Assembly: GCA_030824835.1 (NCBI GenBank)
Contig: JAPJRA010000015.1
Location: 2,369 to 17,929 of the forward strand
Origin: Geminicoccaceae bacterium
GTDB taxonomy: Bacteria; Pseudomonadota; Alphaproteobacteria; Geminicoccales; Geminicoccaceae
Length of the DNA: 15,561 nucleotides
Direction: 5' to 3'
A model generated the notes under the pieces. That model saw nothing but the letters and a program-made list of their open reading frames with translations, did no database searches and had not been told where the DNA came from. A program made the position numbers and the translations under genes. The number at the start of each line of letters is the position of its first letter. Position 1 is the stretch's first letter. Positions 6,953 to 14,028 of the stretch are shown one piece after another.

Positions 6953-7038
6953 GGTCAGCACTCCACCCTCGTCAAGGCCACCGGCCCGCCACATCTCTCG
7001 CGGCCCGTCTCTCGCACCGATTGGGCCGGCTTGTCGAG

Positions 7039-7081
7039 AGCCTGCCGGTGCAGGTGCCCCCACGGGTCGCACCGGCAGGCT
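7039..7081 (-). terminator. Hairpin after the small exported protein gene
   Basis: Perfect 13-base arms, AGCCTGCCGGTGC (7039-7051) and GCACCGGCAGGCT (7069-7081), enclose a 17-base loop. It begins six bases past the stop of the 7088-7423 gene and would insulate glyA. No T-run follows, so the mechanism is uncertain. Confidence 0.6.
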
Positions 7082-7087
7082 GCGGGC

Positions 7088-7423
7088 TCAGTTGGTCAGC
7101 GGCGCCGCGTGGACCAGCACCTCGTCGTTGCGGCGGCTGATCTCGATCCGGTCCGTGGCGAAGCCGACATCGGCGGGGGTCGAGAGGGTGACGGTCTGGC
7201 CGGGGGTGAGCACGGCCTCGAACCGGACCGGCGTGCCGGCCTCGCCCTGCGCCAGGGTGGCGACCACGCGGTAGCCGTCCTGGTCGACGGTGTAGTAGGC
7301 GGTGCCGGTGACGGCGCCCAGGTCGATGGGGCGGGCCTCGATCGGGCGCAGCCCGTCGGCATGGGCCGCGGCGGCGGTGGTCAGCGCCAGGACGGCGGCG
7401 AGGAGGGTGGGGCGCAGTTCCAT
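7088..7423 (-). CDS. Small exported protein, function unknown
   Basis: 111 residues; no family recognised. Residues 1-22 form a Sec signal peptide (MELRPTLLAAVLALTT, then AHA before Asp23). The mature ~89 residues alternate polar and hydrophobic positions as in a small beta-sandwich, for example TGTAYYTVDQDGYRVVATLA (39-58) and VRFEAVLTPGQTVTLST (66-82). There are no cysteines, so it is likely a soluble periplasmic or secreted protein. The ATG at 7423 is preferred over starts further up (to 7507) because the signal peptide begins there; the ribosome-binding site is weak (GAGAGA). It diverges from a LysR-type regulator across a 107-base region containing two palindromes, which makes it the most likely target of that regulator. 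Confidence 0.72.
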   Translation of the reverse strand: MELRPTLLAAVLALTTAAAAHADGLRPIEARPIDLGAVTGTAYYTVDQDGYRVVATLAQGEAGTPVRFEAVLTPGQTVTLSTPADVGFATDRIEISRRNDEVLVHAAPLTN

Positions 7424-7474
7424 GATGGTCTCTCGGCGTTGGGCGTCGCCGGGCCCGATGCCCAGCGCTGCTTC

Positions 7475-7489
7475 TGTTGCAATGCAACA
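7475..7489. promoter_or_regulatory. Palindromic operator candidate, distal
   Basis: TGTTGC-AAT-GCAACA is a perfect inverted repeat with six-base arms in the divergent region upstream of the LysR gene. LysR regulators bind dyads of this size and usually hold two sites in such regions. Its centre lies about 35 bases from that of the second palindrome. Confidence 0.55.
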
Positions 7490-7510
7490 TGGGCCGGCCC
7501 ACATCATTGT

Positions 7511-7524
7511 TCCAATCGATTGGA
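7511..7524. promoter_or_regulatory. Palindromic operator candidate, proximal
   Basis: TCCAATCGATTGGA is a perfect 14-base palindrome ending six bases before the LysR start codon. Binding here would block the LysR ribosome-binding region or promoter, so autorepression is a plausible inference. Confidence 0.5.
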
Positions 7525-7530
7525 TCGCTG

Positions 7531-8487
7531 ATGGCCATCGACCACGTCAATCTAGCCCGGATCGACCTCAACCTGCTGGTGGCGCTCGACGCGCTCTTGA
7601 CCGAGCGCAGCGTCACCCGCGCCGCGGCCCGGATCGGCCTCGGCCAGTCGGCCATGAGCCACAATCTCGCCCGCCTGCGCGCGCTGTTCGACGACGAGCT
7701 CCTGACGCGCGGGCCGGACGGGATGCGGGCCACGCCGCGGGCCCTGGCCCTGACCGATCCCGTGAGGGTGGCGCTGGCGCAGATCGAGTCGCTGGTACGG
7801 CACGACCAGGCGTTCGAGCCCGCCACCGCGGAGCGGCTGTTCCGGGTCGGCCTGCCGGACAGCATCGAGGTGCTGCTGGGGCCGGCTCTGCTGGCCCTGC
7901 TCTGCGCGGAGGCCCCCGGCGTCCGCGTCCGGTTTTACTCGACCGACCGGCTGCAACTGCTGGACGAGCTGGATGCCGACCGCCTGGACCTCGGTATCGG
8001 CATCGGCACCTTCCCGGCCGGGCGGACCCACCACAAGCGCCGCCTGCTCGCCACCGACACCTATCTGTGCATGTTCAGCGCCGAGCGGGTCGGGCTGCAG
8101 CCGCCGATCTCGCTCCAGGACTATGTACGGCTGCCGCACGTGCTGACCAGCCTGCGCCAGGGCGAGCGCGGCGTGGTCGACGAGGCGCTGGGCCAGCTCG
8201 GGCTGGAGCGCAAGGTCGTGCTGACGACCCCGCGCTTCGTGGCCGTGCCGTTCCTGGTCGCCGGCGCGCCGGTGATCACGACGATGCACACCAAGCTCGC
8301 CCGGTTCTTCGCGGCCGCCCTCGGCCTGAGCCTCAGCCCGACGCCGCTGGAGCTGCCGGAGGTGTCGATCTCGCTGCTCTGGCACGCCTCCTACGACCAC
8401 GACCCGGCACATCTCTGGCTGCGACGGCTGGTGACGCGCGTCGCGGCGGCGACGGCGGCCGGGACTCAGCCCGCCCCGGCGCCGTAG
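7531..8487 (+). CDS. LysR-family transcriptional regulator
   Basis: 318 residues. The N-terminal winged helix-turn-helix spans about 8-66: IDLNLLVALDALLTERSVTR, then AAARIGLGQSAMSHNLARLR with the recognition helix, then LFDDELLTRGPDGMRATPRA. The C-terminal region from about 100 fits the two-lobed LysR substrate-binding fold; the effector cannot be read from sequence. The 'LARIDLNLLVALDALL' start is typical of the NodD/NahR-like side of the family. The ATG at 7531 is chosen over an ATG at 7489 and a TTG at 7477 because MAIDHVNLARIDLN is the usual length before the helix-turn-helix. It diverges from a small exported protein gene, with two palindromes between, and its last 22 bases overlap the end of the opposite-strand gene. 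Confidence 0.93.
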   Translation: MAIDHVNLARIDLNLLVALDALLTERSVTRAAARIGLGQSAMSHNLARLRALFDDELLTRGPDGMRATPRALALTDPVRVALAQIESLVRHDQAFEPATAERLFRVGLPDSIEVLLGPALLALLCAEAPGVRVRFYSTDRLQLLDELDADRLDLGIGIGTFPAGRTHHKRRLLATDTYLCMFSAERVGLQPPISLQDYVRLPHVLTSLRQGERGVVDEALGQLGLERKVVLTTPRFVAVPFLVAGAPVITTMHTKLARFFAAALGLSLSPTPLELPEVSISLLWHASYDHDPAHLWLRRLVTRVAAATAAGTQPAPAP

Positions 8488-9197
8488 CCGCGGACGGCCG
8501 GGGGCTCCGGTGCCGCCGGCGCCGCCTCCGCCTCGCCCCAGAGGCCGAACACACGGCTGCCGGCCACCAGCCGCGGGTCGCCGAGGGCGATCTCGACCGC
8601 CTCGCCGGGTTCGTTCTGCAATCCCGACTCCCGGGCGAGCCCGTCGTCGTTGGCAGGCGGCGGCGGGGCCTCGGGTTCGTTCTGCAACAGCCTCTCGGGT
8701 TCGTCCGTGCACGATTCGAGCGGCTCGCGGCGCAGCTGGCGCAGCTCCTTCAGGCAGCGCGACAGCTCGCGGCCCTGCTGGGCCTGGTAGCCGCGGACGG
8801 CGTTGAAGCGCTTGACGTCGAAGGTGGTCAGCGGGTCGGCCTGCTCCCACTGGAAGCCGTGCGCCGGCGGGCGGACCTTGGGGGCGGAATCGAGGATGGC
8901 GACCTCCATCCGCTCCGCCCGCTCGCCCTTCCAGAACGCGACCGCCATGCGGCGGACGAGCCTGGCCTCGATCTCGCTCTCGGGGCCGACCTCCGCCATC
9001 AGCCGGGCGGTCAGGGCCTCCAGCTCGGCCGCGTCCTCGCCGTCGAGGACGAGGTGCTCCATGGCGGCAAGGCCGTGCTTGAGGGCGTTGCGCGAGGCGC
9101 GCGCCTTGCCCTCGGCGGTCACGGGACCGCGCGAGCGGGCGCCGTTGCGGCGGGCGGCCTCGATCTGAGCGGGGGAGCGCGGGCGGGGTTCGGGCAT
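8466..9197 (-). CDS. Conserved hypothetical protein with RNGARSRGP...NALKHGL N-terminus
   Basis: 243 residues. The N-terminus carries a motif I recognise from many hypothetical proteins of high-GC proteobacteria: SPAQIEAARRNGARSRGPVT (8-27) followed by EGKARASRNALKHGL (29-43). Its function is unknown. The basic, Arg/Lys-rich N-terminus would suit nucleic-acid binding, but that is inference. Residues 55-160 are mostly charged helix (ARLVRRMAVAFWKGERAERM near 78-97). The C-terminal third is low complexity, Pro/Glu/Ala-rich, with the pentapeptide LQNEP twice (171-175, 193-197). There is no signal peptide or membrane segment. The ATG at 9197 is used because the preceding in-frame residues (to 9245) are not conserved in style and AGGA lies upstream. 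It converges with, and overlaps by 22 bases, the LysR gene. Confidence 0.8.
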   Translation of the reverse strand: MPEPRPRSPAQIEAARRNGARSRGPVTAEGKARASRNALKHGLAAMEHLVLDGEDAAELEALTARLMAEVGPESEIEARLVRRMAVAFWKGERAERMEVAILDSAPKVRPPAHGFQWEQADPLTTFDVKRFNAVRGYQAQQGRELSRCLKELRQLRREPLESCTDEPERLLQNEPEAPPPPANDDGLARESGLQNEPGEAVEIALGDPRLVAGSRVFGLWGEAEAAPAAPEPPAVRGYGAGAG

Positions 9198-9604
9198 GGC
9201 GGCGGTCCTGTGGGTTGCAGGCGATCTGCAGCCAGTATAGCGCAACGAGGAATTTCAGCCTAGCCCGATCGCTTGCACCCGCCGGGCGGCGCACGTAGAT
9301 CACCGGTGATCGTCGAGGAGCCTGCCGGACCGTCGTCGGAGACCCCGCCGCGCCCGGCTCGTGACGAGGCCGGTGCGCATCGGGGGCGACCACGGGGGCC
9401 GGCCAATCTCCGTCGCGATCGTGCCGGAGGAACGGTGGGCGAGCTCGGCGACGCAGCTGCCGGCGGGTTGGATCGCGTGATGTCGGTGTTCCTGGGGCGC
9501 GTGCGGCAGGCCGAGGTCGGCGCGCTCCGAGGTGGTTACCGACCGTTCATCGAACATGGTATGGCGACGGCGCACACGAGATGGAAACAGCAGGGAATGA
9601 TGCC
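9198..9604. other. Gap between divergent genes with one perfect palindrome
   Basis: About 400 bases without a supported gene. A 14-base perfect palindrome, GATCACCGGTGATC (9298-9311), stands out and could be an operator. Open frames on both strands (plus 9273-9608, minus 9300-9575) are Arg/Pro/Gly-rich, lack domains and look like GC-driven chance frames. Confidence 0.5.
9234..9239 (-). promoter_or_regulatory. Possible -10 element for the 8466-9197 gene
   Basis: On the minus strand this reads TATACT, placed about 37 bases before the ATG at 9197. No convincing -35 element is seen at 16-18 bases. Confidence 0.28.
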
Positions 9605-10006
9605 ATGAGGCGGAAAGGCCAGCTCGCCCGGATCGGGCGACCGATGCGTGGAGCCGGCCGCCGGCTCCGGGCGGCCACGCTCGCCGCTGCTCTGGCGCTG
9701 GGCGGCCTGGCGGCGGCGACGCTGCCGCGGGCGGCGGCCGAGGCGGCGGAAGCCAGGAACCCGAAGAAGCAGGTCGTCGTGATCTGGAAGGATTTCGAGG
9801 CCCAGAACCAGGCGCGGAAGCTCATCGACAGCGGTGCCCTGAAGTCCAATCCCGATGCGGTCAACAGCCTCGTCGCCTGCATCGTGCCGAACGGCACCCA
9901 GCTCACCGTCGTCAACTGGGGCCAGGCCACCGACGACGTGCAGGTGACGTCCGGCCCGTTCAAAGGCTGCTCCGGCAACGTCATGAAGGACTATGTCGAC
10001 GAGTGA
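9605..10006 (+). CDS. Secreted two-cysteine protein, possibly SH3-like
   Basis: 133 residues, not assigned to a named family. A long basic n-region (MRRKGQLARIGRPMRGAGRR) precedes a hydrophobic stretch (about 22-40) and an Ala-rich cleavage region, so the protein is predicted to be exported; a shorter start at Met14 (9644) would also work. The mature ~83 residues contain KKQVVVIWKDFEAQNQARKL, then two cysteines, C92 (VACIVPNGTQL) and C122 (GPFKGCSGNV), which could pair in the periplasm. The 'VPNGTQLTVVNWG ... GPFKGCSGNV' pattern recalls small bacterial SH3-like barrels, but this is a weak structural guess. The ATG at 9605 follows AGGG at nine-base spacing; an ATG at 9581 adds eight residues. 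The gene stands alone. Confidence 0.72.
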   Translation: MRRKGQLARIGRPMRGAGRRLRAATLAAALALGGLAAATLPRAAAEAAEARNPKKQVVVIWKDFEAQNQARKLIDSGALKSNPDAVNSLVACIVPNGTQLTVVNWGQATDDVQVTSGPFKGCSGNVMKDYVDE

Positions 10007-10224
10007 GGCCTCGGGCGCGCGATGGCGTGGGCGGCCGCTCGTGCGGCGGCTGCGTCCCACACCGGTCAGAGTTTGGGGTGGCGTCGGTTTGGTCCATCGG
10101 TGAGGACATGGACGATCGGGGCGACGGCGGCGTGCATTCCTAAGAGGAACGCGTCGGCTTTCCGTCCTTCATCGTGACCACGACCAATGTTTGGCATGCA
10201 TCGAGCGCTCATAGGAGAACGTCC
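10007..10224. other. Gap with a possible decayed coding remnant
   Basis: No supported gene. A minus-strand frame ending at 10066 has a coherent-looking short tail (AFLLGMHAAVAPIVHVLTDG near 10080-10140) that could be debris of an older gene, but I cannot assign it. Confidence 0.3.
10027..10060 (+). terminator. Nested hairpin after the two-cysteine protein gene
   Basis: Outer arms GTGGG (10027-10031) and CCCAC (10056-10060) enclose an inner stem GCCGC-TCGT-GCGGC (10034-10047). It lies 20 bases after the stop codon. The two stems are not continuous and no T-run follows. Confidence 0.35.
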
Positions 10225-10329
10225 ATGGCGCGCAACACGCCAGTCTCGCTCCGCGATCATTTCGCCGACTTCGTCGACCGGCAGGTGGCGGGCGGGCGCT
10301 CCGGGTCGGTCATCGTCCACGGCCAGTGA
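10225..10329 (+). pseudogene. Truncated ParD-like antitoxin gene
   Basis: The ATG at 10225, with AGGAG upstream (10213-10217), opens a 34-codon frame whose start, MARNTPVSLRDHFADFVDRQ followed by VAGGRSGS, is the ribbon-helix-helix N-terminus of ParD-family antitoxins (usually about 80-90 residues; typical relatives read MARNTSVSLGDHF...FIDRQ). After the GRSGS segment the reading frame runs into TGA (10327-10329), and no frame downstream restores the helical, toxin-binding C-terminus, although a different frame (SEQVVEEQA...) keeps a faint resemblance. No parE toxin follows. The gene is therefore read as a decayed antitoxin left beside a functional-looking mazEF pair. A 34-residue DNA-binding peptide could still be made, because the start and ribosome-binding site are intact. 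Confidence 0.7.
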
Positions 10330-10413
10330 GCAGGTGGTCGAGGAGCAAGCCTTCGTGGACGCCATCGCCGATCCCCGGGAGGCCCGAAGCACGGCGGGAT
10401 CTGCGGACCGAGC

Positions 10414-10447
10414 TTGCGGCGCCGGTCGCATCACTGGTAACATGTTA
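10414..10447 (+). promoter_or_regulatory. Promoter with overlapping palindrome for mazEF
   Basis: TTGCGG (10414-10419) and TAACAT (10438-10443) are 18 bases apart. The -10 is embedded in the perfect palindrome TAACATGTTA (10438-10447), 24 bases before the mazE start. An operator on the -10 fits antitoxin autorepression, which is usual for type II toxin-antitoxin operons. Confidence 0.45.
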
Positions 10448-10471
10448 TCCGCACATCGGGAGCATGGGCCT

Positions 10472-10690
10472 GTGGCCGAGCCAGCGACACGCAAGATGGC
10501 GAGCTATCGGGGGCGGTTGCGCGCGCGCGGGCTGCGGCCGGTGCAGGTCTGGGTACCGGACCTGCGCGATCCTGCCGTGCGCGATCGGCTTCGGGCGGAC
10601 GCGGCGCTGGTTCGTGGCCATGCCAGCACGGTTGAAGGTGACAGCTTCGTCGACGCGGCCCTGGCCGATCTGGCGGACTGGCAGGGTTGA
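10472..10690 (+). CDS. mazE: MazE-type antitoxin (DUF3018 family)
   Basis: 72 residues. It matches the DUF3018 antitoxin family, whose hallmark is a basic helix followed by GLRPVQVWVPDLRDP (here 20-34), and it ends in an acidic, helical tail (ADLADW) of the kind that wraps the toxin. It is predicted to bind and neutralise the MazF encoded directly downstream and, with it, to repress the operon. The GTG at 10472 is chosen because GGGAG (10458-10462) lies nine bases upstream; an internal ATG (10496) would cut off the first eight residues, and an open frame reaching back to 10187 runs through the parD remnant and is not credible. The stop overlaps the mazF start by four bases (TTGA), so translation is coupled. 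A promoter and palindrome lie just upstream. Confidence 0.88.
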   Translation: MAEPATRKMASYRGRLRARGLRPVQVWVPDLRDPAVRDRLRADAALVRGHASTVEGDSFVDAALADLADWQG

Positions 10691-11016
10691 GGCGCGGGGA
10701 TCTGGTGCTGGTGGCGCTGCCGGGCGACTACGGCAAGCCGCGCCCGGCGCTGGTGATCCAGGCCGACGCCCTCACCGTCGACGATTGCGGCAGCGTCGTG
10801 GTCTGCCCGCTCACCACCCACCTCACCGGTGCTGCCAGCTTCCGGGTCGTCGTCGACCCGACCGAGGCCAACGGGCTGCACCATCGCTCGGAGGTCATGG
10901 TCGAGAAGCTGGCGGGTGTCGCCCGGGCGCGGCTGCGCGAGGTCGTCGGGCAACTCGACCGCGCCAGCATGAGTGCTGTCGAGCGCGCGCTCCTGCTGGT
11001 GCTGGGATTTGCGTAG
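10687..11016 (+). CDS. mazF: MazF/PemK-family endoribonuclease toxin
   Basis: 109 residues, full length for the family. It shows the MazF landmarks: RRGDLVLVALPGDYGKPRPA (2-21), with R19 at the conserved PRPA position, VVCPLTT (38-44) carrying the candidate catalytic Thr, and ANGLHHRSEVMVEKL (61-75). MazF toxins cleave single-stranded RNA at short motifs and slow translation when the antitoxin decays; the cut site of this one cannot be predicted. The TTG start sits within the mazE stop (TTGA). A strong hairpin with a T-run follows 36 bases after the stop. All key residues are present, so it looks functional, unlike the second mazF at 13362-13686. Confidence 0.92.
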   Translation: MRRGDLVLVALPGDYGKPRPALVIQADALTVDDCGSVVVCPLTTHLTGAASFRVVVDPTEANGLHHRSEVMVEKLAGVARARLREVVGQLDRASMSAVERALLLVLGFA

Positions 11017-11052
11017 ACCTACGGGCGGTGGGGGATCAAGGACCGCGGGAGA

Positions 11053-11098
11053 CTGCCGACCCATCGGTGGAAACCGCTATGGTCGGCAGCGCCTTTTT
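11053..11098 (+). terminator. Intrinsic terminator after mazF
   Basis: Perfect nine-base arms, CTGCCGACC (11053-11061) and GGTCGGCAG (11081-11089), enclose an inner stem CGGT-GGAA-ACCG (11065-11076), and TTTTT follows at 11094-11098. This is the best intrinsic terminator in the window. Because it also precedes the DUF2283 gene, attenuation of read-through is possible. Confidence 0.68.
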
Positions 11099-11116
11099 GG
11101 ACAGGAGTTTCGTGCC

Positions 11117-11368
11117 GTGAGCGATGATTCCGTTCGCTACGACCCGATCACCGACACGTTGTGGGTGGAGCTGCGCCCCTGGCCCGGCGGGTCTGCGACC
11201 GAACCGGCCGCCGGCGGCGAGGATGCGGCCGAGGATCTGGTCATCCACTACGCACCGGACGGGCGCCCCTGGGCCTGGGAGATCGAGCACGCCTCCCGGC
11301 ACACTGAACTGGTGGGCGAGGCGCTACGCACGTTGCGCGAGATGCGGGGATTGCTGGACGCGGCGTGA
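11117..11368 (+). CDS. DUF2283 family protein
   Basis: 83 residues. It follows the DUF2283 plan: a first strand pair VRYDPITDTLWVELRP (6-21), a middle linker, then LVIHYAPDGRPWAWEIEHAS (41-60), corresponding to the family's 'D-x-x-G-x-x-x-x-IE-x-x-AS' segment. The C-terminal tail is helical. The molecular function of DUF2283 proteins is not established; they are often seen near toxin-antitoxin genes. The Gly/Ala/Glu-rich linker (23-40) is longer than I expect for the family. The GTG at 11117 has AGGAG at 11103-11107 with nine-base spacing; upstream frame sequence overlaps mazF and is rejected. It lies 100 bases after mazF, beyond a terminator, so it may be expressed only by read-through or from an unseen promoter. 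Confidence 0.8.
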   Translation: MSDDSVRYDPITDTLWVELRPWPGGSATEPAAGGEDAAEDLVIHYAPDGRPWAWEIEHASRHTELVGEALRTLREMRGLLDAA

Positions 11369-11385
11369 CGCACAAAACTCAGGAG

Positions 11386-11460
11386 GGCGCAGGCCGGTGT
11401 GGTTTGGGTATGTGATCGGTGGGAAGATTGCGTAAGCCTGCCTGCGCCAAGATCTTTTTT
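11386..11460 (+). terminator. Long-loop hairpin with T-run after DUF2283
   Basis: GGCGCAGG (11386-11393) can pair with CCTGCGCC (11441-11448), followed six bases later by TTTTTT (11455-11460). The 47-base loop is unusually long; GCAGGC/GCCTGC is an alternative pairing. It marks the point where the sequence becomes AT-richer. Confidence 0.35.
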
Positions 11461-11513
11461 CAAGGTATTCGATAACGCCCGCTTGCCCGCCTTAATGTCT
11501 TGTTAAGGTGATC

Positions 11514-11522
11514 TGGTACAAT
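11514..11522 (+). promoter_or_regulatory. Extended -10 promoter candidate
   Basis: TGG-TACAAT forms an extended -10 element. Just upstream is the inverted repeat CCTTAA/TTAAGG (11490-11495 and 11503-11508), a possible operator. No gene of normal size follows on this strand; the only candidate is the 45-codon frame at 11538. Confidence 0.35.
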
Positions 11523-11537
11523 AGACCCCGGGAGTCG

Positions 11538-11675
11538 ATGGGCGTGGGGCTGTGGATTTGCGGTCGAAGCAGAAATTACTTGATGCAGCTTTATCGATCA
11601 CCTGCAGATAGACGTAAGCCAGCAAACTTCAGCATAGTATTTGTGACAACGGTGCGGATTGCTAAGCTCTGCTAG
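11538..11675 (+). CDS. Possible 45-residue small ORF, unrecognised
   Basis: An ATG preceded by GGGAG (11530-11534; spacing only three bases) opens a 45-codon frame ending at TAG. The peptide is basic, begins MGVGLWICGRSRN and ends with a hydrophobic stretch SIVFVTTVRIAKLC. It sits 16 bases downstream of the extended -10 candidate, so the leader would be very short, and it ends 18 bases before the stop of the convergent nuclease-like gene. I recognise no family. Chance is a real possibility in this AT-richer stretch, where short frames are common. The rest of the 325-base gap (11369-11693) holds the hairpin and promoter candidates listed separately and nothing else that I can see. Confidence 0.25.
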   Translation: MGVGLWICGRSRNYLMQLYRSPADRRKPANFSIVFVTTVRIAKLC

Positions 11676-11693
11676 CGAATGGGTTGCTATCGT

Positions 11694-13274
11694 TTAATCG
11701 GATCTAGTACGGTGGATTGCAGGCTGTCTCAAAGACTGGCCGATGCGGCTCCACCATGGCAACACCTCAACCATGCGGCCTTCGAAGGGGTAGCCATTGC
11801 TCTCATAAATGTCGGGTGAGATATTGCTGTGAACACTTGACAACTGCCAGCCCTGGAAACGTTCCTCAGTTGCCGCATTGACCGCCCCAAAGAACGATGC
11901 CTCAGTTGCCAAACTAAGTGTCAACTCGAGTTCGTCGATGGGACAGAAAATCACTGGAATTTGGTCTTCTTCGATAATTTCAGGGTCCCGACTGATAACC
12001 ATTGCCCTCGCAATATTTACTACATCATCCTGTATTGTGTTGGCCATCGAGAGCCAAGCATTCAAGGTCAGAACAATCCCTTTTACGTCTTTCTTCAGCC
12101 GCTCTTGTCTGAGAAGGCCACGGCGATAGTGCGATGCAAAGCGCCAAATCTGAGAGACACCCTTCGCCATCTCATCGTAGCCCCTACGTGCATCGGCGAT
12201 GGGCTTCTCTGAGTATCGAGCTTCATAACTCATTCGGGTGGCCTTGCATTCCAAGATAAGGCAAACTCCATCATTGTCATTTACCAAAATATCTGGAGAA
12301 TCTATTTCATTCTTCCGGATATGGTACTTGAAGCTGCTCCTGACAGTGTACGATGGAAGCATGCTACTAAGAAATTCTAGGGAGTATGTCTCGAAGCGGC
12401 CAGATATCTCGTTTCTGACATCATCATTTCCCTTAACTAAGTCGTAGAATAAGCCGGACGTACTTCTCAGAATGAGAAGATCGGGGAGGGGCGCATTTAG
12501 ACGCTCTCCGGCGCGCCCGAACGCAATGCAGGGATATTCGCGGAACAGGCTGCGCTTGTAACTCGTATGACCAAATCCGGAGCGAAGTTCTGATGCTCTC
12601 TTCCGTGCTCTGGCATGGGGGATGGAGACCAAGTCAAGGATCGCGTCGAGTGTCCGCTTAGAGATCCCGATTTCTTCCATGACGATCCCGCGCCCAATTG
12701 CTGGCTTGTCTAGGTACATTGTTCGCAGGGCGAAGCATGCCAAGGCAAAATCATCTATAGTGAAACCGTTTGCCCCGTGGAAGAACGCTCGCGCTAAGCT
12801 GCCGCCGTAGATGAATCCAGCTCGGTAGATCTGAGAATATGAAAGAAAACCGCGCTGCCATTCGAACTGACGCTGTGCAAGTCTGTGAAGCTCTCGGAGC
12901 ACATTAATGCGTTTGAGTGTGAAGCTATCCTCAGCGTTTTCAAGACCTGTGAGTGCGTTCGTGACGCGGGCCATGGCCTCAAATCTCCCGCAGTTGAGAT
13001 GTCTACTAGGCCGATCAGTCGGAAATTTTGACTTAGGGGTTGCTAAAAGTTCATTCAGTATTGTCTCAATCTTCCACGGATGCACGGCATAACCTGATGT
13101 CATGTCATTGGTTGCTGCTTCCTCGGGAAACACCAGAAATGGCGCCGCCTTTTCCGGCCTCCCAGACTGGGCCGCGAACGTCGCCCAGGCCATGACAAAA
13201 AATGCCTCATCGTCCGCTATAGCAAGAAGATCAGCAAGCTTTTTCTTATATAAGTTACGACGGATATGGCTCAT
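11694..13274 (-). CDS. Unrecognised protein with PD-(D/E)XK nuclease signature
   Basis: 526 residues; no named family recognised. The N-terminal ~290 residues are mostly helical and soluble, with a helix-turn-helix-like stretch near 201-230 (EIGISKRTLDAILDLVSIPH). The C-terminal half carries a PD-(D/E)XK pattern: SPDILV with D328, then a strand VCLILECKAT with E342 and K344, and GVSQIWRF with Q375, a position often conserved in restriction-type nucleases; E295 or E300 could supply the first acidic residue. A metal-dependent DNase is therefore likely; the substrate is unknown. There is no membrane segment. The ATG at 13274 has GAGA six bases upstream. The gene is visibly AT-richer than all its neighbours and lies 87 bases downstream, on the same strand, of a mazE-mazF pair, which suggests horizontal acquisition into a defence or toxin-antitoxin region. 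A restriction or phage-defence role is inference. Confidence 0.7.
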   Translation of the reverse strand: MSHIRRNLYKKKLADLLAIADDEAFFVMAWATFAAQSGRPEKAAPFLVFPEEAATNDMTSGYAVHPWKIETILNELLATPKSKFPTDRPSRHLNCGRFEAMARVTNALTGLENAEDSFTLKRINVLRELHRLAQRQFEWQRGFLSYSQIYRAGFIYGGSLARAFFHGANGFTIDDFALACFALRTMYLDKPAIGRGIVMEEIGISKRTLDAILDLVSIPHARARKRASELRSGFGHTSYKRSLFREYPCIAFGRAGERLNAPLPDLLILRSTSGLFYDLVKGNDDVRNEISGRFETYSLEFLSSMLPSYTVRSSFKYHIRKNEIDSPDILVNDNDGVCLILECKATRMSYEARYSEKPIADARRGYDEMAKGVSQIWRFASHYRRGLLRQERLKKDVKGIVLTLNAWLSMANTIQDDVVNIARAMVISRDPEIIEEDQIPVIFCPIDELELTLSLATEASFFGAVNAATEERFQGWQLSSVHSNISPDIYESNGYPFEGRMVEVLPWWSRIGQSLRQPAIHRTRSD

Positions 13275-13361
13275 TATAGTTCTCGCGGCAATGCGTGGAC
13301 GCTATGTGGAATCAACTGTCTGGCATCTGATCTGCTACAAATTAGTGCTTTAATAGCTGTC

Positions 13362-13686
13362 TCAAGCAATCCCAACAAACACGGCGAGCACACGCGTCGT
13401 ACCGAGCAGGACGTCATCTTCGAGCCGCCCGATTGGGTCGCTCAACTTCTCCCGTGGAACGGTGTGTGCTTTGTCGACCAGCACCTGGGACGACTTGTAT
13501 AGCCCATTCTCGGCGGTCGGCGCGATCGCGATTCGGAACATATGGGTGTCGCGCAGCTCGCTGGTGATGGGCAGTATCGTGACCGAAGGATGCAGGTCGA
13601 ACAGGTCGGATTGGGTCATCAGGGCCGACCGCGGCTTGCCGTAGGCGCCCCGGTGGTGCGACGATGAGCAGGTCGCCACGGCTCAA
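13362..13686 (-). pseudogene. Second mazF toxin gene, frameshifted
   Basis: The TTG at 13686, overlapping the mazE stop (TTGA), starts LSRGDLLIVAPPG, the usual MazF N-terminus. After a run of four C (plus strand 13648-13651) the reading frame is wrong. The neighbouring frame continues the protein exactly: AYGKPRSALMTQSDLFDLHP, then VTILPITSELRD, ENGLYKSSQVLVDKAH and a normal C-terminus (AVFVGIA) at 13362. The span is 325 bases, one more than a multiple of three, so a single inserted base in the homopolymer explains everything. Downstream residues of the active-site region are conserved (GKPRSA in place of GKPRPA; T in LPITS), so decay is recent, or the shift is a sequencing error. As written, the toxin is inactive. 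Downstream on the same strand lies the nuclease-like gene. Confidence 0.85.
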
Positions 13687-13895
13687 CGCCAGCCTTCCGT
13701 TTCGGCTGTGGCAGCGAGCCGGTCCACCGTCTCGCGCTCTTGCGGATCGTCGCGCAGCATAAGTGACTGGCGGCGGCATTCGGCGGCGAAGCCCTCACGG
13801 CGGGTGTCCGGCACCCAGATCTGGATCGGGCGGAGACCGGCCGCGCGCAGGTCGGCGCGATGGCGCTTCGTACATCCAGTCAAGGGCGTCGGCAT
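13683..13895 (-). CDS. Second MazE-type antitoxin (DUF3018 family)
   Basis: 70 residues with the same plan as the antitoxin at 10472: a basic helix KRHRADLRAAG (10-20), the DUF3018 core LRPIQIWVPDTRREGFAAEC (21-40) and an acidic tail. The two antitoxins differ widely outside the core, so this is not a recent duplication. The stop overlaps the TTG start of the second mazF by four bases, the same coupling as in the first pair. The ATG at 13895 lacks a clear ribosome-binding site, and no strong promoter is seen in the 90 bases upstream. If the downstream toxin really is broken, this antitoxin is no longer needed for self-protection but could still act on the operon or on the other MazF. Confidence 0.85.
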   Translation of the reverse strand: MPTPLTGCTKRHRADLRAAGLRPIQIWVPDTRREGFAAECRRQSLMLRDDPQERETVDRLAATAETEGWR

Positions 13896-13987
13896 CGAGC
13901 AACTTTCTGCATGACACGTAACAATAGATCGTCAGCAGAGGCCGCCGTAAACCGGAAACTTGGTCCCGAAAAAGCCCAGGGGTGGGT

Positions 13988-14019
13988 GCGGGAGGGGCGC
14001 GGGCTCGCGCCCCTCCCGC
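13988..14019 (-). terminator. Very strong hairpin after sdaA
   Basis: Perfect 14-base arms, GCGGGAGGGGCGCG (13988-14001) and CGCGCCCCTCCCGC (14006-14019), enclose a four-base loop. It begins nine bases past the sdaA stop. In the direction of transcription a TTTTT run occurs about 15 bases after the stem, rather far for a classical terminator. Confidence 0.75.
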
Positions 14020-14028
14020 GGCGCAGCC

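Follow-up and report, generated by a model that had tools for sequence, protein, structure and literature searches.

A divergent GapS1-type PD-(D/E)XK nuclease in a Geminicoccaceae bacterium, probably a stand-alone phage-defence effector

What does a low-GC gene for a 526-residue protein do between two mazEF toxin-antitoxin loci of a Geminicoccaceae bacterium? The gene lies at 11694..13274 on the minus strand of a 15,561 nt stretch of contig JAPJRA010000015.1, referred to as the window. An earlier note on this DNA regarded the protein as an orphan nuclease candidate of no recognisable family and as a possible undescribed system. The open reading frame (ORF) is intact, as that note had it, and its start is consistent with those of its relatives. 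The explanation favoured here, with a probability of about 0.65, is that the gene encodes a divergent GapS1-type PD-(D/E)XK nuclease, a stand-alone, phage-triggered effector that would arrest the infected cell. The basis for this is an observed kinship with GapS1, a conserved site, the lack of any partner gene kept across loci, and some defence, prophage and plasmid contexts, together with a predicted fold and, as we infer, arrest triggered by infection.

Searches with family models gave one firm lead. In Pfam, no family matched the protein at an expectation value (E) of 1 or below; the PemK domain, which would mark membership of MazF/PemK, is absent from it and was found only in neighbouring ORFs. 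A sequence search of the PDB gave no firm match. The single NCBIfam match was to GapS1 (NF047931, antiphage_GapS1; E 1.8e-20, 73.3 bits, residues 100-457), and because the curated cut-off of this model is 320 bits, the protein is not filed as GapS1 in the sense of the curated subfamily. Profile comparison brings the two close together: in hhalign, a profile of 30 window-protein relatives and one of 24 GapS1-type proteins aligned at 99.1% probability (E 4.5e-19, 386 columns), an earlier profile-profile run with six GapS1-type proteins having given 98.6% (E 5.3e-16). In the profile alignment D328, E342-C-K344 and Q375 stand opposite the D, (D/E)xK and Q of GapS1. Residues Q136 and Q140 align with a QxxxQ pair in the helical part of GapS1, and the pair is present in 30/30 rows of the window-protein branch and 23/23 GapS1-type rows, with one or both glutamines missing from three of the four outlying rows (L040, L041 and L042). 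In a midpoint-rooted FastTree reconstruction with 57 sequences, support was 0.999 for the window-protein branch (33 taxa) and 0.984 for that of GapS1 (23 taxa), L042 grouping with the former at a support of only 0.389. With two well-supported branches, the window protein is a sister of GapS1 that lies outside the curated subfamily; judged by homology over most of its length, with the active sites aligned, it belongs as a new sister branch to a GapS1-type superfamily that extends beyond the NCBI model. It is thus no orphan, and the idea of an undescribed system fails with this placement, since the kind has already been described.

The GapS1 model matched 10 of 398 sampled genomes of the phylum, three of them above the cut-off, and the reference GapS1 proteins above the cut-off were three genome proteins (541, 404 and 359 bits). 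A Klebsiella P2-like prophage protein (L044, 35848-37398), annotated as hypothetical and adjoining an integrase gene, also scores above it (393 bits). Searching with it returned 31 relatives, some of which already carry the source name GapS1 family protein. Sequence sets A5 and A6 take 18 of the 31, and two rows of these sets (L038 and L039, 272 and 154 bits) lie below the cut-off. Left out were the L024 relative (missed by the crude ORF caller), L029 (a fragment) and L043 (30 bits, no protein, not in the tree). At L029, in Sphingomonas, the relative looks decayed, as only its first third remains (10001-10453). Genomes G024 and G026 (loci L024 and L026) hold two GapS1-type matches apiece. Functional support for the window protein comes from published accounts of GapS1: in a meeting report, GAPS1 of K. 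pneumoniae is said to defend against many phages (PMC12908700), and a second source describes a structural match between a Klebsiella prophage protein and GAPS1 (PMC12774648).

The four residues put forward in the earlier note as a PD-(D/E)XK site are correctly placed and strongly conserved. D328, E342, K344 and Q375 are all present in 111 of 115 aligned family members (singly, D in 113, E in 112, K in 112 and Q in 113, the other two being gapped at Q), and every one of the 57 tree sequences keeps the D and K of the site. By calculation from the ORF position, codons 328-344, which include D328 and E342-C-K344 of the predicted site, lie at 12245..12293, and the Q375 codon, the third motif, at 12150..12152, both on the minus strand. 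The exceptions are P0114 (D at 342), P0065 and P0109 (short and unaligned across the site) and P0057 (N at 344). This last is a full-length relative with asparagine in place of the conserved lysine, and may be a natural inactive variant. The AlphaFold2 model of the window protein (predicted local distance difference test score, pLDDT, 92.1; predicted template modelling score, pTM, 0.89) has a restriction-endonuclease-like core around the site residues (residues ~284-403) that matches restriction-endonuclease folds. The core is preceded by a mostly helical N-terminal part (residues ~1-231) and followed by a helical C-terminal part, and the order of elements is the same in a model of GapS1. No match below E 0.001 was found in a viral structure library. 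The assignment as a PD-(D/E)XK nuclease, by conserved site residues and predicted fold, holds, and nuclease activity is predicted from it. Both checks proposed beforehand, on fold and on conservation, came out in favour of the nuclease, and the helical part ahead of it is likewise borne out. A helix-turn-helix-like stretch was not confirmed: the model shows a largely helical N-terminal part, but the protein has no Pfam match at E 1 or below.

A nuclease of this fold could also be pictured as a restriction endonuclease, either type II-like or a type IV enzyme resembling Mrr or McrC, that cuts incoming DNA by its sequence or modification and does not stop the host. The match to restriction enzymes covers the nuclease part; by profile, GapS1 has the helical N-terminal part as well, and by fold the defence protein Upx may have it too. 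No DNA methyltransferase, as a type II restriction-modification system would have, was recognised in the window, and among the best 25 of 263 families no methyltransferase model matched at least three of the 131 proteins neighbouring the relatives, a single locus (L004) having one. A restriction enzyme is accordingly considered unlikely, though it is the foremost of the alternatives.

A protein search with the window protein, in which 7,994 candidates were scored, found 114 relatives at E 0.001, mostly unnamed, the names displayed being hypothetical protein. When GTDB genomes were scanned with a single peptide pattern, 30 loci came up, all alphaproteobacterial by their titles and of genera that we take to belong to that class. 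More distant relatives (22-24% identity) were found on plasmids of Pseudomonas, Cupriavidus and Caballeronia, so that the wider family is not limited to alphaproteobacteria. Relatives occur on 24 plasmid records, 14 of them typed as conjugative, and in six viral contigs. Some genes in L089, L090 and L093, from translations read by eye, are presumably those of integrase, terminase and capsid-like proteins. At 22 of the 30 loci, the GC content of the relative is below that of its surroundings (median difference -0.05). The window gene has a GC of 0.503 and a GC at third codon positions (GC3) of 0.541, compared with 0.58-0.75 and 0.73-0.97 in the 16 other measured ORFs of the window, which bears out the deviating base composition claimed for it. 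Carriage on plasmids and in viral contigs, as well as the presence of some chromosomal relatives among housekeeping genes, would also suit a nuclease with a role other than against phages, for instance in plasmid exclusion, in DNA repair or in the rivalry of mobile elements. The patchy occurrence and varying neighbours of the family misfit a housekeeping role, and its GapS1 kinship and defence neighbours indicate defence, making a non-phage role improbable, and a little more so than a restriction enzyme.

Defence genes are found near 9 of the 30 relatives, representing about seven independent loci. Ten neighbour proteins, from a set of nine loci, were chosen by eye as likely defence genes, so that the six of these nine loci with a PADLOC name do not represent a rate; the names are LmuB (L019 and L011), PtuA (L021), TIR-APAZ (L025), Dsr1 (L012) and a methyltransferase (L004). 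The proteins of L001, L014 and L017, and one of L011 that we take by eye to be SIR2-like, received no PADLOC name. Matches with two members place PtuA also in L022 and Dsr1 also in L023, and matches to AbiEi and AbiEii fit L014. The systems next to some relatives are thus Lamassu, Septu, TIR-Argonaute and Dsr1. As a control, 17 stretches were taken from 17 of the 30 genomes, and 137 of their 197 called proteins were scanned (60 were dropped at random); they yielded one SspC/SspD locus and one BrxC match, perhaps a single locus. In five of the 17 control genomes (L004, L014, L019, L021 and L025), the relative itself has a defence gene nearby, so that the excess of defence genes near relatives over the control is no more than suggestive. 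The numbers of PADLOC families (263 nearby, 35 at greater distance and 33 in the control) do not serve as a measure here, because one PtuA protein alone matches 41 models. Hits of the mad2 and mad3 models, which appear in the control too, were discounted as noise.

No partner gene is conserved among the 30 loci. Neighbours change from one locus to the next and recur only in pairs of similar loci (L011/L014, L012/L023 and L021/L022), and the nuclease, if a defence protein, probably acts alone, as the earlier note had allowed. A 456-residue ORF that overlaps the stop codon of the relative in L011 and L014 (11514-12884 in both) was rejected as a partner: it is absent from the other members of the 30 loci, and its two copies are 99% identical. 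It has no Pfam, PADLOC or NCBIfam match. Other neighbours include a 1281-residue protein directly before the relative of L017 (6148-9990), without Pfam or PADLOC match, and, beside or near the relatives of L018 and L028, a reverse transcriptase (PF00078; 11614-13314) and a PDDEXK_4 protein (PF14281; 12010-13104), respectively.

Several observations weigh against a phage-triggered GapS1-type effector. The GapS1 score of the window protein is far under the curated cut-off, and the model, which matches 22 of the 30 genomes carrying relatives at E 1e-5 and none above the cut-off, gives no match in the other eight; function may have drifted, given the low score and these unmatched genomes. The window protein is not represented in PHROGs (best E 0.17, none below 0.1), has no match among INPHARED phages and no firm match in PADLOC, where its sole match, to Csx1 at E 0.054, was taken as chance. 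Some defence genes turned up in the control stretches as well. A survey of neighbourhoods showed homologues that are not confined to housekeeping contexts, although some relatives (L003 and L005) do sit alone among housekeeping genes.

Under the GapS1-type reading, the helical half would keep the nuclease inactive, and a phage product would release it by binding. Nucleic acid would then be cut at a metal-binding site made up of D328, E342 and K344, with Q375, and the cell would turn dormant or die ahead of phage release. In the work of Mahata et al. from 2024, GAPS1 itself is reported to be set off by a phage capsid protein and to induce dormancy.

The nuclease gene lies within a block of 7,073 bases (6956..14028) between sdaA and glyA, which also holds both mazEF loci and a LysR gene; the first genes of the window are presumably rsmI and an LpoA-like gene. 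By glyA and sdaA, the nearest relatives fall in one small order (best identities 79% and 78%). At E 1e-195, sdaA had a match in nine of the 31 genomes from one order; two of the nine contigs end too early, and in the seven closer-relative contigs that hold both genes, sdaA and glyA are adjacent on one strand. The more distant genomes G003 and G277 carry the two genes on separate contigs, so that their adjacency is characteristic of the closer relatives. None of the block proteins matched the nine related contigs at E 1e-6. As marks of an insertion, no ends, tRNA, integrase or Rfam match at gathering score were found. The genes next to glyA have a host-like GC3 of 0.91-0.93, unlike the nuclease gene, and this mixture of host-like and low-GC genes suggests that the block may have grown in steps.

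MazE-like and PemK/MazF ORFs occur on both sides of the nuclease gene, at 10460..11016 on the plus strand (PF11455, E 1.6e-19; PF02452, E 4.5e-22) and 13362..13895 on the minus strand (PF02452, E 4.9e-14; PF11455, E 3.6e-25). This position between two such loci would fit a nuclease that is a component of a toxin-antitoxin unit with them. A frameshift breaks the second mazF (13362-13679) close to its start: in that frame, likeness to mazF1 sets in only at residue 13. The missing N-terminal residues were found by eye in an overlapping ORF (13414-13779), and the MazE-like partner of this mazF looks intact. The description of two flanking mazEF modules therefore stands for the presence of the genes and not for the integrity of the second. 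A repeat search of the window brought out only an inverted pair within mazF1 and mazF2, a 46-base repeat with 83% complementarity (10722-10767 and 13605-13650) that flanks the nuclease gene. The frameshift makes a mazEF partnership with the nuclease unlikely, and in the 30 other loci the neighbours vary as described above; a joint toxin-antitoxin unit is a very improbable reading, and the functional link once suggested is not upheld. The flanking mazEF loci are probably context and not part of the mechanism. Directly after mazF1, an ORF (10973-11368) has a borderline match to DUF2283 (22.7 vs 23 bits).

The Upx protein provides a possible link to a second defence system. Upx was reportedly described by Gao et al. 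In a Foldseek search against the PDB, Upx (9wuf) was the only match below E 0.001 for both the window-protein and GapS1 models: 361 residues of the former and 371 of the latter align to Upx residues 768-1272 and 754-1272, with root mean square deviations of 8.2 and 9.2, respectively. Sequence profiles do not find Upx; armadillo-repeat matches of the A1 profile and three weak matches of the A7 profile were taken as chance. In both VIA-align lists, the Z score of Upx tied with those of nicking and restriction enzymes (BspD6I), and this reduced the estimate for a common origin of the three proteins from slightly better than even to even. At those odds, GapS1, the window branch and the C-terminal half of Upx may form one superfamily of infection-sensing nucleases, in which a helical sensor is built into the PD-(D/E)XK core and which travels as single-gene cargo, in Upx behind a large N-terminal part. 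If so, two separately described defence systems have one effector engine in common. Upx is a possible structural template for proteins in which sequence searches found no solved relative. A literature search, with most subscription papers outside its reach, returned no account of the window branch or of a GapS1-Upx link. Upx is listed as a nuclease-type phage-defence system in a table of PMC10855318.

With these results GapS1, so far a narrow curated family, becomes a superfamily. On sequence grounds, hypothetical proteins of Rhizobium-type symbionts, sphingomonads, Rhodospirillales and others, and of conjugative plasmids, would become likely products of phage-defence genes, with a named active site that can be tested. 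Among known systems, GapS1 is the closest: it too is a single protein of about 500-530 residues with predicted elements in the same order, and both GapS1 and the window branch occur as prophage or mobile cargo. Unlike GapS1, most rows of which have DxK, the window branch has ECK, and its loci are 30/30 alphaproteobacterial by title, as sampled by one peptide pattern only. The window protein differs from Upx in its length, 526 residues against 1,212, well short of the chain of about 1,200 by which an Upx would be recognised. Likeness to the restriction-endonuclease-like nucleases BspD6I, FokI, NucC, SduA and McrBC covers mainly the nuclease part and, unlike these, the window gene is seen with no methyltransferase, cyclic-nucleotide or AAA partner.
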